A stretch of DNA of 53,676 bases from Bacillota bacterium (GTDB taxonomy: Bacteria > Bacillota > Clostridia > Acetivibrionales > JANLFN01): the NCBI GenBank assembly GCA_030705825.1, contig JAUZPR010000007.1, positions 1 to 53,676 of the forward strand. The letters are read 5' to 3'. Under the pieces are notes generated by a model. It was given only the letters and a program-made list of their open reading frames with translations. It did not search any database and was not told the origin of the DNA. This document shows positions 40,222-49,936 of the stretch, one piece after another. The position numbers and the translations under genes were made by a program. The first letter of the stretch is position 1. Each line of letters starts with the position of its first letter.

Positions 40222-40257
40222 ACAAAATAAAACCTCCGGAGTATACCGGAGGCTTTA
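40222..40257 (-). terminator. Terminator of the four-gene GHMP/TrpF/ADH/aldolase operon
   Basis: Stem CCTCCGG/CCGGAGG (40233..40252), followed on the minus strand by TTTTATTTTG; about 20 bases after the aldolase stop. Confidence 0.85.
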
Positions 40258-40273
40258 AAATAGCTTGATTCAA

Positions 40274-41074
40274 TTATGCATTCTTACTGTGTTCAAGAAG
40301 CTCAACCGCTGTTTTGACACTCATATTTTCATGAATGATTCCGTATGCTGCCGACAGCAGTGCTGCAGGATGAGGGCTTTGCCATACATTCCTGCCCATT
40401 ACTATTCCCTTTGCGCCACCCTGAATAGCATTATAAATCATGTTCAGAGTATCCAGATCTGTTTCGCATTTAGGGCCCCCTGCTATCATAACAGGAACCG
40501 GGCAGCCTGAAGTTACCTTCTCGAAATCGGTTTCGGTATAATAGGTCTTAACTATATCGGCACCGTGCTCTGCACAGACTCTTGCTCCAAGTGCAATAAA
40601 CCTGGGATCCTTCTTTTTGTCTTCATTGTTTTTACCAAGGCCGCAAACACCTAATAGAGGCACATTCCACTTACGGCAGTCTGTAGCCAGCTTAGATAAA
40701 TCAACCAAGGTTTCATGCTCAAATTCGGAACCTACAAAGGCTGACGCTGCAACCGCATCGGCACCTAGCATCAGAGCCTCTTCAACAGAAGAGGTCAAGC
40801 CTTCATGAGTCAGATTCGGTCCGGCTATTGTCGCCGCTCCGCTTGCCCTCATAATTACACCCGGTGTACCTGACGGCTCGAAGGAATATGTATACATTCC
40901 CTTTGTGATAAGCCATGCATCAACTTTTCCGGTATCATCCAGCATTTTTACAGTTGTTTTCAAATCTGATATTCCTGTCATAGGTCCCAGAGCCATACCG
41001 TGATCTACGGCTATTACCAGGCTTTTACCGGTATCCTTTATTATTCTTTTTAACCTGCTCTGCATTCCGTTCAT
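40274..41074 (-). CDS. DhnA/LsrF-type class I aldolase
   Basis: 266 residues; GGGGAGG 8 bases before the ATG. A (beta/alpha)8 aldolase of the DhnA family: AVDHGMALG at about 22-30, LGADAVAASAFVG, the Schiff-base lysine in GADIVKTYYTE (about 177), PVPVMIAGGPK, and the phosphate-binding GAKGIVMGRNVWQ at about 230-242. Relatives are archaeal fructose-bisphosphate aldolase, ADH synthase of the alternative shikimate route, and LsrF. The conserved phosphate site implies a sugar-phosphate substrate. Last gene of a tight operon with a beta-RFAP-synthase-like protein, so it may make or split a ribosylated intermediate (inference). Confidence 0.82.
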   Translation of the reverse strand: MNGMQSRLKRIIKDTGKSLVIAVDHGMALGPMTGISDLKTTVKMLDDTGKVDAWLITKGMYTYSFEPSGTPGVIMRASGAATIAGPNLTHEGLTSSVEEALMLGADAVAASAFVGSEFEHETLVDLSKLATDCRKWNVPLLGVCGLGKNNEDKKKDPRFIALGARVCAEHGADIVKTYYTETDFEKVTSGCPVPVMIAGGPKCETDLDTLNMIYNAIQGGAKGIVMGRNVWQSPHPAALLSAAYGIIHENMSVKTAVELLEHSKNA

Positions 41075-41094
41075 TTAAAAAGCCTCCCCAACGT

Positions 41095-42129
41095 TTATTT
41101 AAACAGCACTATTCCCTTTATCATATCCTGATTCTTGGCTCTTTCTACCGCATCAAGCATATTGTCGAGGGTGAACCTGTCCGAAATCATATCTTCCACA
41201 ATTATTTCACCGCTTGCAATCAGTTCCAGTGCCTTCTTGAAGTCATCGGGAGTTGAAGCGAACGAGCCTGTTATTGTTATTTCTCCATAATGAACCCATC
41301 TGGGATCAAGAGTTATAGGCTGTCCTGCCGGAGGTCCTCCAAATATGTTTAATATACCTCCGTTCCGAACTAACCTGTAGCTGTCTTCTATGACCTTTGG
41401 AATACCCAGAGAGGTAATTACAACCTCTGCTCCAGTTCCACCGGTAATTTTGCGCAGCTCTTCTTCCAGATTTGCTTCCGAAACATTTATACAATAATCG
41501 GCACCCATTTGTTTTGCAATCTTAAGCCTTTTATCAAGGACATCGGCCATAATTACCGTTGCACCTGCCCATTTGGATACCTTCAGATGTATAAGTCCCA
41601 TAGGCCCTGAACCTACTATGACTACTCTGTCTCCAGGTTTAACCCTGTTTTTTCTTAGCGCTGCAATTCCGCATGATAGAGGTTCCGCAATTACCGCCTT
41701 TTCATAGGAAAGCTCATCAGGTATTTTTATTACACCGCCGATATTTATAATTTGAGCAGGAAGCTTGACATATTCGGCAAAGCCGCCGTTTATTCCGTGC
41801 CCAAGTCCAAATTCCTTCAAGCAAAGATTATGGTGTCCATTTTTGCAATAATAGCATTCGCCGCAAACCGCAATCGGATAAACTGCCACTCTCTCCCCCA
41901 GGTTAAATCCCTTAACGCCTTCCCCCATCTCGTAGATCTCACCTACCACCTCATGGCCTAAAATAGTAGGCAGTTCCTTCGGAAGTCCTTGACCTAGCAG
42001 GGTTTTGACATCGGTTGCACAAATCCCCGAGGCTTTTATCTTTACTGTAATTTCCCCCGAACCAGCCTTTGGAGTAGGGTAATCCTCAACCCGTATATCA
42101 TTTTTTCCGTATACTACTGCTGCTTTCAT
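41095..42129 (-). CDS. Zinc-dependent medium-chain alcohol/polyol dehydrogenase
   Basis: 344 residues. Catalytic zinc ligands Cys37 (GICATDV), His59-Glu60 (LGHEVVGE); structural zinc cysteines in CGECYYCKNGHHNLC (about 89-103). NAD(P)-binding Rossmann motif VGSGPMGLIH (about 168-177), then MADVLDKRL; an acidic residue (MAD) after strand 2 suggests NAD+. It resembles sorbitol/threonine dehydrogenases. The ATG overlaps the TrpF-like stop (ATGA), and the aldolase starts 20 bases later. It probably oxidises or reduces a secondary alcohol on the operon's intermediate. Confidence 0.85.
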   Translation of the reverse strand: MKAAVVYGKNDIRVEDYPTPKAGSGEITVKIKASGICATDVKTLLGQGLPKELPTILGHEVVGEIYEMGEGVKGFNLGERVAVYPIAVCGECYYCKNGHHNLCLKEFGLGHGINGGFAEYVKLPAQIINIGGVIKIPDELSYEKAVIAEPLSCGIAALRKNRVKPGDRVVIVGSGPMGLIHLKVSKWAGATVIMADVLDKRLKIAKQMGADYCINVSEANLEEELRKITGGTGAEVVITSLGIPKVIEDSYRLVRNGGILNIFGGPPAGQPITLDPRWVHYGEITITGSFASTPDDFKKALELIASGEIIVEDMISDRFTLDNMLDAVERAKNQDMIKGIVLFK

Positions 42130-42827
42130 AGTTTTTTCATCTCCATCTTTCTCACATTGCGCATTAGTTGTTTTATTTTTACCGGGTCCTTTTTGCCCGG
42201 ATACGCTTCTACTCCTGAACAGAGGTCAACACCGGCAGGTTTAAGATACGAAATGGCTTCCTCAACATTCTCGGGCCTGATTCCGCCAGCCAGTAATACA
42301 GGTACCTTTCCACCGACAGTCCCCATCAATTCCTTGACTACACTCCAGTCTGAAGTTAGACCGGTACCCCCAAATTTTTGTACGCCATCTACTTTTGCCA
42401 CAGTATCGAACAACAACAAGTCGACACCTGAGTCTATATATTCCGACGCAATCCTTTTGACTCCGTCAAGATTCACACCCTCGCCGGCACAGGGAAGATG
42501 AACCGACTGCCACAGTTCAAGCCCCGGATAGTCCTTTTTCATACGCCGGATAAGTTCCGGAGCTTCCTGGCTAAGAAACTGAATGGAAAACGGGTGAAGT
42601 TTTTCCACAAGATAGCGAAGTCTCTCTTCCTGCATACAGAATACCAGAGCAACTGCTGGAATTGGCGGATTCGCGAAAAGCGACTCTGCCTCTTCAATAG
42701 TCAGTGACCTCTTTGAAAAACCAACCTCAACAACTACTCCAAAATAGTCTGCACCTTCCTGGTATGAAATAAGTGCATCTTCCATGTTTGTAGTGCCGCA
42801 AATTTTAACCAAGTAACCATCCTTCAT
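42126..42827 (-). CDS. Phosphoribosylanthranilate isomerase-like (TrpF-fold) protein
   Basis: 233 residues; ATG at 42827 with GAGAGGG 9 bases upstream, overlapping the GHMP gene by 23 bases. TrpF features: strand 1 VKICGTTN with the catalytic Cys, GADYFGVVVEVGFSKRSL (phosphate and RS motif as in FxxxSxR), catalytic Asp in LLLFDTVAK, then FGGTGLTSDW and LLAGGIRPENV, and a C-terminal VDLCSGVEAYPGKKD. Both catalytic residues are kept, so it should do an Amadori-type isomerisation of a phosphoribosyl-amine. No other trp genes are near, which argues against simple tryptophan synthesis. It may use the product of the GHMP protein. Confidence 0.8.
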   Translation of the reverse strand: MKDGYLVKICGTTNMEDALISYQEGADYFGVVVEVGFSKRSLTIEEAESLFANPPIPAVALVFCMQEERLRYLVEKLHPFSIQFLSQEAPELIRRMKKDYPGLELWQSVHLPCAGEGVNLDGVKRIASEYIDSGVDLLLFDTVAKVDGVQKFGGTGLTSDWSVVKELMGTVGGKVPVLLAGGIRPENVEEAISYLKPAGVDLCSGVEAYPGKKDPVKIKQLMRNVRKMEMKKL

Positions 42828-44010
42828 GCTGGAAAGCCCTCTCAACACCGTTTTCTTTTATTTTAGCGCCAACATTATCCACCTGTGTTTCAATAATTCT
42901 GCTTTCAGGCACACCCTGTGTATGCAGGTATTTTATTATCCTGTCGTAAACATCATCTTTCTGGGTCAATGCAAATATTGTCGGGCCAACCGAGCTCATA
43001 CCGGCAATCTCGGCACCTATGTTCCTGAAGGTGCTGATATAACTATAAATTGGCGCACCAAACGAACCATGCTGTTCACACTCGGCTCTTTTAGACCCGA
43101 GGAAGCACAAATCAAACATGGCATCACCCATTGCCTTAAGATCTCTCTTAATCATAGCGGGAATCATATTCATCAGTATTAATTGAGATTTAACACAGGA
43201 CTGCATGGAATCAAGATATCTTGCTCTTGTCATAAGCAGTTCAGCCTCAGATTCAGCCGCAGTTTCCTTACCTGTAAATTCATCCTCAAGACTAGGGACA
43301 TCAGGAATAAAAATAATAACCTTTGTATCAGGCAGGTCAATCCTATAAACCATTTCAAGGTCATCAGCACCGATTACCCAACCGCCGTTTACACCGGCCA
43401 TAGCGCCTATACCCGTTTCAAATGCCCTTATGAGATAACCGTTTCCATTCGGACTTTCTTCACATGAATGGTAACCAAGTATCCTTCTTAATTCTCTGCC
43501 TGTAAAAGGCCTTCCCAGAACCTCATTTATGCCAATGCATGCGGCACACATGGTTCCTGCCGAGGAACCCATACCCACATGCCTCCGTTTATGATCATAC
43601 AGTTCAATTTCAAAACCGCCCGGATATTGAAGCAATTCCTTGAAAATATATCCAAAGTGTTTTACGATAAGCGTCCTCTCACCCTTGACCCTGATTTCAG
43701 GTTCTTTTATTGATTTTACTTTTGCATGAAAGTATATCTGTACACCGACACCGATCCCACCGCCGCCTGCCCTATCCAGGTTAAACCTGTTCATATCGAG
43801 TACGGATGGGTGTAATCTGGCTGGAACTGTAATTTCCACTTCTCTTTCATATACTTCCTTTACTGTTCTTGGAGCAACACCGAAATTTTCAAGCGGAATA
43901 ATAAACTCCTTTTGTCCGGGTTCGAACTCCTCCAGAAAAGTTGTTACACGGTCAATCATACTACCGATAATATTGATTTCAATTTTCTTCTTTGATGCAA
44001 TTTCAGACAT
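42805..44010 (-). CDS. GHMP-superfamily protein, beta-RFAP-synthase-like
   Basis: 401 residues; GAGGAGGGG before the ATG. About 60 residues precede the GHMP fold, which begins VPARLHPSVLDMNRFNLDRAG, the arrangement of beta-ribofuranosylaminobenzene 5'-phosphate synthases (xRLHxxxxDMNG...GGxG). A glycine loop follows at HVGMGSSAGTMCAACIGIN (about 166-184). True RFAP synthases use PRPP to attach ribose through carbon to p-aminobenzoate or p-hydroxybenzoate in methanopterin synthesis; relatives (ForT, PyfQ) make C-nucleosides. It could instead be a genuine sugar kinase. First gene of the operon, with its own promoter. Confidence 0.7.
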   Translation of the reverse strand: MSEIASKKKIEINIIGSMIDRVTTFLEEFEPGQKEFIIPLENFGVAPRTVKEVYEREVEITVPARLHPSVLDMNRFNLDRAGGGGIGVGVQIYFHAKVKSIKEPEIRVKGERTLIVKHFGYIFKELLQYPGGFEIELYDHKRRHVGMGSSAGTMCAACIGINEVLGRPFTGRELRRILGYHSCEESPNGNGYLIRAFETGIGAMAGVNGGWVIGADDLEMVYRIDLPDTKVIIFIPDVPSLEDEFTGKETAAESEAELLMTRARYLDSMQSCVKSQLILMNMIPAMIKRDLKAMGDAMFDLCFLGSKRAECEQHGSFGAPIYSYISTFRNIGAEIAGMSSVGPTIFALTQKDDVYDRIIKYLHTQGVPESRIIETQVDNVGAKIKENGVERAFQHEGWLLG

Positions 44011-44154
44011 TTTTTCCCCTCCTCAAATAAATAACTGCCATCCTGACAAATACTACAAAACAATTCATGTAAGAGGAGAAATAACAGATGTTAAAGATGT
44101 GACTGATATAATCTGTTTTCTACCATCCTACCATTCTACAATAACTACAATTTA

Positions 44155-44183
44155 ATTATATTCATATTTTTTGGCAATGGCAA
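44155..44183 (-). promoter_or_regulatory. Sigma-A promoter of the four-gene operon
   Basis: TTGCCA (44183..44178), 17 bases, TATAAT (44160..44155). It predicts a leader of about 140 bases that contains an AACAGAT/ATCTGTT stem (44084..44117). Confidence 0.7.
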
Positions 44184-47696: not shown

Positions 47697-49691
47697 TTAT
47701 TTTTTCAACAATGTCAGTGCATGGTTGACTACGTTATCCACAGTAAAACCGAATTCCTTGAATAATCTATCGGCAGGAGCCGAAGCACCGAATGTATCAA
47801 TTGATATGATATCACCATCCAGCCCGGTGTATTTATGCCATCCGAAAGAGCTGGCAGCTTCTACAGCGAGACGGGTTCTTATATTATCAGGGAATACGCT
47901 CTTCTTATATTCATCGCTTTGCTCTTCGAAAAGCCTCCACGACGGCATACTTACTACTCTTGACGAAATACCCTTTTCCTTAAGAACCTTGGCTGCCTCA
48001 TAAACCAGCTCAACCTCCGAACCAGATGCCATTAAGATTATGTCAGGCTTCTTGTTTTCAGCATCAACAAGTATGTATGCACCCTTAAGAGCGTCCTTAC
48101 CGGTTTCCTGATACAAAGGCAGATTCTGCCTGGTCAATACCAATGCCGTAGGTCCGGTCTTTCTTGATACTGCACTGTACCAGCCGGCAGCAGCTTCTTT
48201 TGCGTCAGCTGGACGGAAAACGTTGAAATTTGGTATGCTTCTGAGCGCTGCAAGGTGTTCTATAGGTTCATGAGTTGGTCCATCCTCTCCAACGCCTATA
48301 CTGTCATGAGTAAGTATATAAGTTACGGGAAGTCCCATTAATGCCGAAAGTCTCATTGCATGTTTCATATAATCCGAGAATACAAAGAAGGTAGCAACAT
48401 AGGTTCTAAGTCCGCCATGTACGGTAATACCGTTTGCTATGGCTGCCATTGCATGCTCCCTGACTCCATAGTGCAGATTTGAACCGGTTCTGTCTTCAGC
48501 CGAAAAATCTCCTCTGCCTTTCATGTTTGACTTGTTTGAAGGTGCCAGGTCGGCGGAACCACCTATCATGTTGGGCAGAAGCTTGGCAAGCCTGTTGAGG
48601 ACATCTCCTGATGAAGCTCTTGTAGCAGTCGGTTTGCTGTCAAACTTCCAGAAATCCTCATTATTAAGGAGGTCCACAGGCAGTTCATTGCTGTTCCAGG
48701 AATTCCATTCTGCAGCCAATTCCGGATATTCCTTCTCATATGCAGCCCATATCTTATTCCATGCCTCTTCACCTTTGGAAAGCTGCTGTGTAACTTCAGA
48801 CATATGTTTTTTAACTTCTTCAGGTACTGTGAAAGCTTCGGACCATTTCCAGCCCAGGAATTCCTTTGTTTCCTTTATGCAGTCTTCGCCAAGAGGTTCA
48901 CCGTGAGCCGATGACTTGCCCTGTTTGGATGGGCAGCCATATCCTATTTGTGTTTTTACTATTATAATAGCCGGCTTTTTATCTTCTTTCTTTGCTTCTT
49001 CCAGAGCCTTGGCGATTGCATCTATATCATTTCCGTCATTAACCCTGAGAACCTGCCATCCATATGCTTCATAACGTTTTCCTACATCTTCACGGAATGC
49101 TATGTCAGTATTGCCTTCAATTGTTATGTTATTTGAATCATAGAGTAATGTCAGTTTTCCAAGACCCAGTGTACCTGCGAGTGAAGCCGCTTCCGACGCA
49201 ATTCCTTCCATCATGCAGCCATCACCGGATAACACATATGTACGATGGTCTACTATTGTATGACCAGGGCGGTTGAACCTTGCTGCAAGATAGCTTTCTG
49301 CTATTGCCATTCCTACTCCGTTGGCAAGTCCCTGTCCCAAAGGTCCTGTAGTTATCTCAACCCCTTTTGTATGCTTATATTCCGGATGTCCGGGAGTTTT
49401 GCTTCCCCATTGACGGAAATTCTTTAAGTCCTCAATGGTAAGACCATATCCAAAAAGGTGAAGCAGGGAGTATACAAGAGCAGAACCATGTCCGCCTCCG
49501 AGAACAAAACGGTCCCTGTCAACCCATGAGGGATTTGCAGGATTGTGTTTCATGGACTTTGCCCAAAGAGTATATGCCATTGCGGCAGACCCCATTGGAA
49601 GGCCGGGGTGGCCGGATTTTGCCTTTTGCACTATCTCAGCCGATAGGATTCTGATTGTATTTACAGAAAGCTGATCAAAATTTGTACTCAT
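47697..49691 (-). CDS. tkt: Transketolase
   Basis: 664 residues, full length; the ATG at 49691 is 6-7 bases from AAAAGGAGA. Thiamine diphosphate motif [34 protein letters not shown] (about 152-185), His in [10 protein letters not shown] (about 25-34), a pyrimidine domain with [14 protein letters not shown] (catalytic Glu), [17 protein letters not shown]-like loop, and a C-terminal domain. It moves two-carbon units in the pentose phosphate pathway, linking C5 sugars to glycolysis. Single gene with its own terminator. Confidence 0.96.
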
Positions 49692-49936
49692 AACCATTCT
49701 CCTTTTATGTAAAATTCTATTTACCTGGCGGTTTTAAACTAATAGTTTATTTATTGTACTATTGCCAAATATATATTAGCACAACAGCTCCATATATTAC
49801 AATAAAACTTTATATAGACGTAAGTTTCATTTGTCTTATTAATTTGAAAGAATACTCCAATAGCAATTACGTTAACCATATAATATAATTAAATAAGACC
49901 TATTTCTCCCGTAATCATTATAATGTGGGGTGTTTT

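Follow-up and report, generated by a model that had tools for sequence, protein, structure and literature searches.

A horizontally spread four-gene cassette with a putative RFAP synthase/ForT-like protein and a candidate link to aromatic amino-acid metabolism

The window analysed here is a stretch of 53,676 nucleotides (contig JAUZPR010000007.1, positions 1 to 53,676) from a Bacillota bacterium, and it carries on its minus strand a compact cassette of four genes. The first (42805..44010) is an open reading frame (ORF) for a GHMP-superfamily protein of 401 amino acids with Pfam GHMP N and C domains, which resembles the β-ribofuranosylaminobenzene 5'-phosphate (RFAP) synthases and ForT. It is followed by genes for a TrpF-fold isomerase (42126..42827; Pfam PRAI), a Zn-dependent and probably NAD (nicotinamide adenine dinucleotide)-dependent medium-chain dehydrogenase (41095..42129; Pfam ADH_N/ADH_zinc_N) and a DhnA-type class I aldolase or thiolase that is closest to LsrF (40274..41074; Pfam DeoC/LacD). 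Since the homologs of the TrpF-like protein begin with MKDG, its start was set at the likely ATG at 42827, so that genes 1 and 2 overlap by 23 bases; genes 2 and 3 overlap by 4 bases and a gap of 20 bases separates genes 3 and 4. A sigma-70-like promoter on the same strand (TTGCCA-17-TATAAT, 44155..44183, 11 of 12 consensus positions) precedes the first gene, and an intrinsic terminator of 12 pairs with a T-rich tail (40228..40257, minus strand) marks the end of the operon. A preliminary description of this DNA had proposed just such a unit with one promoter and one terminator. All of this was found as claimed, the ORF coordinates bearing out the junctions and Pfam concurring with the four families. 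Absent from that account, and new here, is an element in the leader: tandem repeats of 8–9 nucleotides (GTAGTTATT-GTAGAATG-GTAGGATG-GTAG, 44120..44148, minus strand), the first of which begins 6 nucleotides past the −10 box. Inspection of the leader also revealed an extra copy of the repeat unit close to the ribosome-binding site (TCAGGATGGCAG, 44035..44046, minus strand).

By using the GHMP protein as a query against 84,980 species genomes we identified 13 loci, hosted by Desulfobacterales, Desulfuromonas, Desulfonema magnum, Desulfallas, Desulfotruncus arcticus, Pelotomaculum and Syntrophomonadaceae. Wherever the length of the contig allows, the four genes are present in the same order, with identities to the window proteins of 65–80% (GHMP protein), 42–62% (TrpF-like protein), 59–77% (dehydrogenase) and 65–81% (aldolase). 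Genome searches added three complete cassettes (L028, L030 and L070), giving 14 genomes, window genome included, from Firmicutes and Desulfobacterota. Within the window genome's own phylum, 7 of the 398 genomes sampled have the cassette (the window genome counted), and a check of 59 relatives found it in none of them. Of 297 genomes sampled from the Desulfonema phylum, three encode a GHMP protein that reaches the full score, and six encode a standalone protein that is more distantly related. The expectation that the four genes stay together thus holds in distant Desulfobacterota and syntrophic Firmicutes, but was wrong for close relatives. Comparison of the flanks among loci gave no neighbour beyond the four that is generally common, and flanking genes were dropped as a clue to the substrate. 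The unrelated flanks and the absence from all 59 relatives indicate horizontal transfer, and the recurrence of the complete unit in different phyla excludes a chance arrangement. Judged from these comparisons, the cassette is a functional unit that has moved horizontally and is patchily distributed. It is a real enzyme set, and in the literature searched for it and its pathway we found no description.

A few further features of these loci were noted. A second GHMP subfamily (36–41% identity; L058–L063, for example L068:8994-10151) occurs in Desulfobacterota unaccompanied by the remaining cassette genes; in the clear case an NtrC-type response regulator gene follows it, and these standalone relatives yielded no clue to function. 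The gap between the dehydrogenase and aldolase genes measures 245–460 bases in several genomes compared to 20 bases in the window, and in one of them it holds a match to the Rfam TwoAYGGAY RNA (L016:11047-11204, minus strand; 45.2 bits, gathering threshold 43). Upstream of the window cassette, on the same strand, lies a transketolase gene (47697-49697), with a YgjP-like gene and an opposite-strand sensor kinase gene between; an adjoining transketolase gene was not seen in the other genomes.

The GHMP protein had been placed with the β-RFAP synthases rather than the kinases because of an RLHxxxxDMN arrangement. The window protein has this arrangement exactly, and 11 homologs keep its R, L, H, D, M and N without exception. 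The best NCBIfam match is RFAP synthase (90.2 and 85.9 bits), with homoserine kinase at 34 and no kinase model higher, and the best PDB sequence matches are ForT structures. These scores bear the placement out, although fold comparison of an AlphaFold model (predicted local distance difference test score 71, active-site loops below 50) ties ForT (Z 25.3) with homoserine kinase (Z 24.3). A small maximum-likelihood tree of GHMP proteins was uninformative, having long branches and too few kinases. Active-site residues were mapped using the structures and mutants of ForT and its 5-phosphoribosyl 1-pyrophosphate (PRPP) site (PMC8183095, PMC9832568). The PRPP site is kept, with ForT R19 corresponding to R65, H99 to H144, the HxGxGS pyrophosphate turn to H144-S149 and the essential catalytic E211 to E255, all of them invariant; the position of ForT S21 is His, the same as in RFAP synthase. 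At the 4-aminobenzoate site, D19, which is required in the Methanothermobacter RFAP synthase (PMC6787355), corresponds to the invariant D72, and the invariant R80 lies no more than one position away from R26 in the alignment, which is also the case for the Phyllobacterium enzyme. An N-terminal extension of about 57 amino acids is conserved among the cassette proteins. Most probably, to judge by these residues, the GHMP protein works like the RFAP synthase/ForT group, though it falls outside the curated family and has a changed substrate pocket. The methanopterin marker MCH was detected in three archaeal controls and in none of 18 cassette genomes; a role in methanopterin or tetrahydromethanopterin (H4MPT) metabolism was accordingly rejected, and the earlier suggestion of a methanopterin-like cofactor finds no support.

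Pfam (PRAI) and structure comparison confirm the TrpF fold of the gene 2 product. Its catalytic Cys and Asp, which the preliminary description had seen in the window protein, are both invariant in the homologs, as is the Arg of the SxR motif, and the phosphate-site residues are intact. The protein scores under all TrpF equivalog cut-offs (best 129 bits compared to 215). Lack of any other trpF would have pointed to this being the tryptophan enzyme; the window genome has two more, each inside its own trp cluster (L017 on C63, L018 on C124). We also looked for indole-3-glycerol-phosphate synthase (IGPS, trpC) in cassette genomes and obtained no match in G271, G360, G460, G463, G465 and G466 (drafts, some of them probably the same genome twice); four of these (G460, G463, G465 and G466) have no PRAI-family match besides the cassette copy. 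Because the host has two other trpF genes in trp operons and because the cassette protein is retained in genomes without an IGPS match, we rejected the tryptophan enzyme as its identity: by gene content, the cassette TrpF does not serve tryptophan synthesis. Two Desulfobacterota genomes also encode divergent members of the TrpF family, roughly 290–300 amino acids long, close to an elongation factor P-like gene (L032:6342-7205 and L035:5839-6741).

The dehydrogenase retains its catalytic and structural Zn ligands, and an Asp or Glu past its second strand suggests the use of NAD. The aldolase scores 269.7 bits with the LsrF model NF006081 (cut-off 297) and 231 with the subfamily model of 2-amino-3,7-dideoxy-D-threo-hept-6-ulosonate (ADH) synthase (cut-off 241). 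LsrF is thus its nearest family even though it remains under the cut-off, and the Schiff-base Lys and LsrF-type loops are present, KTYYTE and GLGK aligning with KTYYVE and GVGK.

Tandem 8-nucleotide repeats of the form (GYAGRAYG)n occur in the leaders of all Firmicutes cassettes examined. In most of 14 cassette and aro/trp leaders the repeats begin 4–7 nucleotides past a TATAAT-like box (several cases are less clear), and they presumably sit at the start of the transcript. In three leaders (L009, L011 and L014) a terminator hairpin lies between the repeats and the gene. We searched nine cassette genomes for the element pattern and inspected the matches. In the window genome it lies upstream of the chorismate mutase gene aroH (no mismatch) and of aroF-tyrA-aroA and aroA-aroK-aroC (one mismatch each); two other one-mismatch matches, one within an ORF and one intergenic beyond the end of aroB, look like chance, and the two trp operons of this genome have no site. 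In other cassette genomes the element precedes operons for 3-deoxy-D-arabino-heptulosonate 7-phosphate (DAHP) synthase (three), TrpX-type ATP-binding cassette transporters (four), DctP-type tripartite ATP-independent periplasmic transporters (two), genes for acyl-coenzyme A (CoA) ligase (two), and a sodium symporter gene beside an aminotransferase gene, on a contig that ends in a fragment of the alpha subunit of indolepyruvate:ferredoxin oxidoreductase (IOR). The assignments of aroH, DAHP synthase and aroA exceed their family cut-offs, and TrpX reaches 332 of 390. A reversed-pattern control gave 2–5 matches per genome compared to 1–9 with the real pattern; single weak matches are therefore meaningless alone, and the meaningful signal is the clustering on aromatic genes. 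Since the cassette shares this leader element with aromatic genes, it is probably co-regulated with aromatic amino-acid supply in Firmicutes, and for a set of genes so regulated, amino-acid precursor metabolism fits better than a new cofactor. Enzyme homology and the shared leader element are two independent lines of support for a link of the cassette to aromatic metabolism.

No Rfam riboswitch was found upstream of the cassette, and the trp RNA-binding attenuation protein was set aside as a reader of the NAG repeats, the 8-nucleotide spacing seeming unsuited to it. By eye, some leaders may allow pairing of the repeat region with the loops of the terminator (CCTACC/CTATGC). Candidate loci of the element are window positions 44120-44148 and 44035-44046, and L105, L106, L108, L109, L111–L114, L120 and L122; it is a candidate aromatic amino-acid control signal in syntrophic Firmicutes.

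As the best explanation, we suggest that the cassette may encode a mobile pathway of four enzymes that contributes to the supply of aromatic amino acids. On the basis of its homology and its kept PRPP-site residues, the GHMP protein would join an electron-rich aryl carboxylate of the 4-hydroxybenzoate or 4-aminobenzoate type to PRPP, giving an aryl C-riboside 5'-phosphate, CO2 and pyrophosphate. The TrpF-like protein would then open the ring to ArCH2-CO-CHOH-CHOH-CH2OP through a vinylogous Amadori-type tautomerisation, for which a para OH or NH2 group is needed. Oxidation of C4 by the Zn/NAD dehydrogenase would yield ArCH2-CO-CHOH-CO-CH2OP, equivalent to the LsrF substrate carrying an aryl group at its methyl, and the LsrF-like enzyme would use CoA to cleave this 3-hydroxy-2,4-dione 5-phosphate to arylacetyl-CoA and dihydroxyacetone phosphate (DHAP). 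Arylacetyl-CoA could pass through IOR to arylpyruvate and on to a Tyr/Phe-type amino acid. With an electron-rich aryl acid as acceptor, the chemistry of the four families would chain without a gap. A route from aryl acids to amino acids through IOR is known in methanogens (Methanococcus; PMC3462420). The IOR alpha subunit was over its cut-off in all 16 cassette genomes tested, compared to 2 of 14 controls.

Taken broadly, as aryl ribosylation within aromatic amino-acid metabolism, this reading seems to us a little better than an even bet. The specific chain from aryl acid and PRPP through to arylacetyl-CoA and DHAP is tentative, and we expect it to fail somewhere rather than to hold throughout. 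That it amounts to a new route in anaerobes from C6-C1 aromatic acids to arylacetyl-CoA or arylpyruvate (C6-C2/C6-C3), in which the ribose of PRPP is grafted on the ring and then cut so as to feed aromatic amino-acid synthesis, with a C-riboside as a further substrate for Amadori chemistry of the TrpF type, is rather unlikely in our estimate. If true, PRPP ribose would be a carbon donor for aromatic side chains, outside methanopterin and C-nucleoside antibiotics, and the ribose-donor logic would be tied to the way in which sulfate reducers and syntrophs meet their needs for aromatic amino acids.

Several observations weigh against the proposed pathway. The GHMP protein scores under both curated RFAP-synthase cut-offs (113.5 for TIGR00144 and 328 for NF040726), that of TIGR00144 being exceeded in none of 13 cassette genomes; methylotroph RFAP synthases score 146–159 and 177–181, respectively. 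By fold, homoserine kinase is level with ForT. Two contacts to the 5'-phosphate are not preserved, the cassette proteins having A, I, T or S at the position of ForT T106 and R or P at that of R135, and Q266, which in ForT binds the acceptor carboxylate, is Glu; these changes make both PRPP use and the acceptor uncertain. To our knowledge there is no precedent for a TrpF-type opening of a C-riboside. Which of the third and fourth steps comes first, and in which direction the dehydrogenase works, are guesses. The leader element was absent from the five Desulfobacterota cassette leaders examined, and the regulatory link is one of sequence, seen in Firmicutes. IOR is widespread among strict anaerobes; finding it here is weak evidence and serves as a consistency check. 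Orf17, a HisA-like protein encoded beside RFAP synthase on methylotroph plasmids, was dropped as a precedent for an RFAP synthase paired with an Amadori isomerase, as its deletion leaves dephospho-H4MPT intact (PMC8141765).

Other schemes could draw on the same four enzymes. The first two or three steps might be alike and lead to a biosynthetic end product, such as an aryl-deoxyribitol, an aryl-hydroxyacetone or the C-nucleoside-like metabolite or cofactor envisaged in the preliminary description, with the aldolase performing a plain retro-aldol cleavage or an addition. RFAP synthase products supply cofactor or antibiotic pathways, and both the RFAP synthase/ForT-like active site and the strong conservation across phyla would fit such a scheme; however, no conserved tailoring genes adjoin the cassette, the methanopterin marker is absent, and the Firmicutes leader element groups the cassette with amino-acid supply and not with cofactor genes, which leaves this alternative rather doubtful. 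A kinase, an isomerase, a dehydrogenase and an aldolase are also the classic combination for sugar-phosphate salvage, as in the Lsr system or 5-deoxyribose salvage, with a GHMP kinase, isomerisation by the TrpF-fold protein, oxidation or reduction by the dehydrogenase and an LsrF-like cleavage. The proximity of the aldolase to LsrF and the tie by fold of ForT and homoserine kinase as neighbours of the GHMP protein are in keeping with it. We nevertheless hold it to be unlikely, given that the GHMP sequence is far nearer RFAP synthase/ForT than any kinase model, with the RFAP-type D19, Arg, H99 and E211 invariant, that no sugar transporter is conserved near the cassette and that the probable co-regulation is with aroH/aroF/aroA.

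The complete TrpF active site with its invariant SxR Arg, together with the TrpX-like transporter in the same putative regulon, would suit a side branch of tryptophan or anthranilate metabolism that runs through an N-riboside, in which the GHMP protein ribosylates an aminoarene, TrpF performs its normal Amadori step and the dehydrogenase and aldolase degrade the product. This is distinctly unlikely: RFAP synthase/ForT enzymes make C-C bonds, several cassette genomes are without an IGPS match, and both trp operons of the window genome lack the element. An alternative shikimate entry in the manner of the archaeal AroA'/AroB' route, where the DhnA aldolase would act as ADH synthase, seems very improbable. 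Although the score of 231 bits approaches the 241-bit cut-off and the probable co-regulation with shikimate genes would agree, the cassette has no 3-dehydroquinate (DHQ) synthase II, the YPRG loop of MJ0400 is missing from the aldolase, DAHP synthase is encoded in the host along with what reads by eye as an AroB protein at C188, and the AroA'/AroB' route has no place for the GHMP and TrpF-like proteins.

Three of the enzymes and the proposed route have both likenesses to and differences from known systems. With β-RFAP synthase, ForT and PyfQ the GHMP protein shares the GHMP fold, a PARLH...D...R motif (whose D is not in ForT), the HxGxGS loop with the equivalent of His99, and that of the essential Glu211. 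It differs in its identity of 20–24%, its N-terminal extension, its scores under the cut-offs and the T106/R135 contacts that are not preserved, and no H4MPT or antibiotic genes lie near the cassette. The TrpF-like protein has the fold, catalytic Cys/Asp, GGTG and SGVE..G.KD phosphate site and SxR Arg of phosphoribosylanthranilate isomerase, with QFLS in place of QLHG and an additional invariant WQS motif. Like the 3-hydroxy-2,4-pentanedione-5-phosphate thiolase LsrF, the aldolase is a class I DhnA enzyme with the Schiff-base Lys in KTYYxE and a GxGK loop; unlike in the LsrF system, no lsr genes or autoinducer-2 transporter are nearby, and the protein has an MJ0400-like GGPKxxTD stretch. The archaeal ADH synthase MJ0400 is likewise a DhnA-type aldolase, one of aromatic biosynthesis, to whose subfamily model the cassette enzyme is matched, but the YPRG loop and the partner DHQ synthase II are missing here. 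As for the salvage of aryl acids through IOR in methanogens, the proposed arylacetyl-CoA would join that route, IOR is found in all cassette genomes tested, and an acyl-CoA ligase gene carries the cassette-type leader element. The methanogen route begins with preformed arylacetate, whereas here the side chain would come from ribose.

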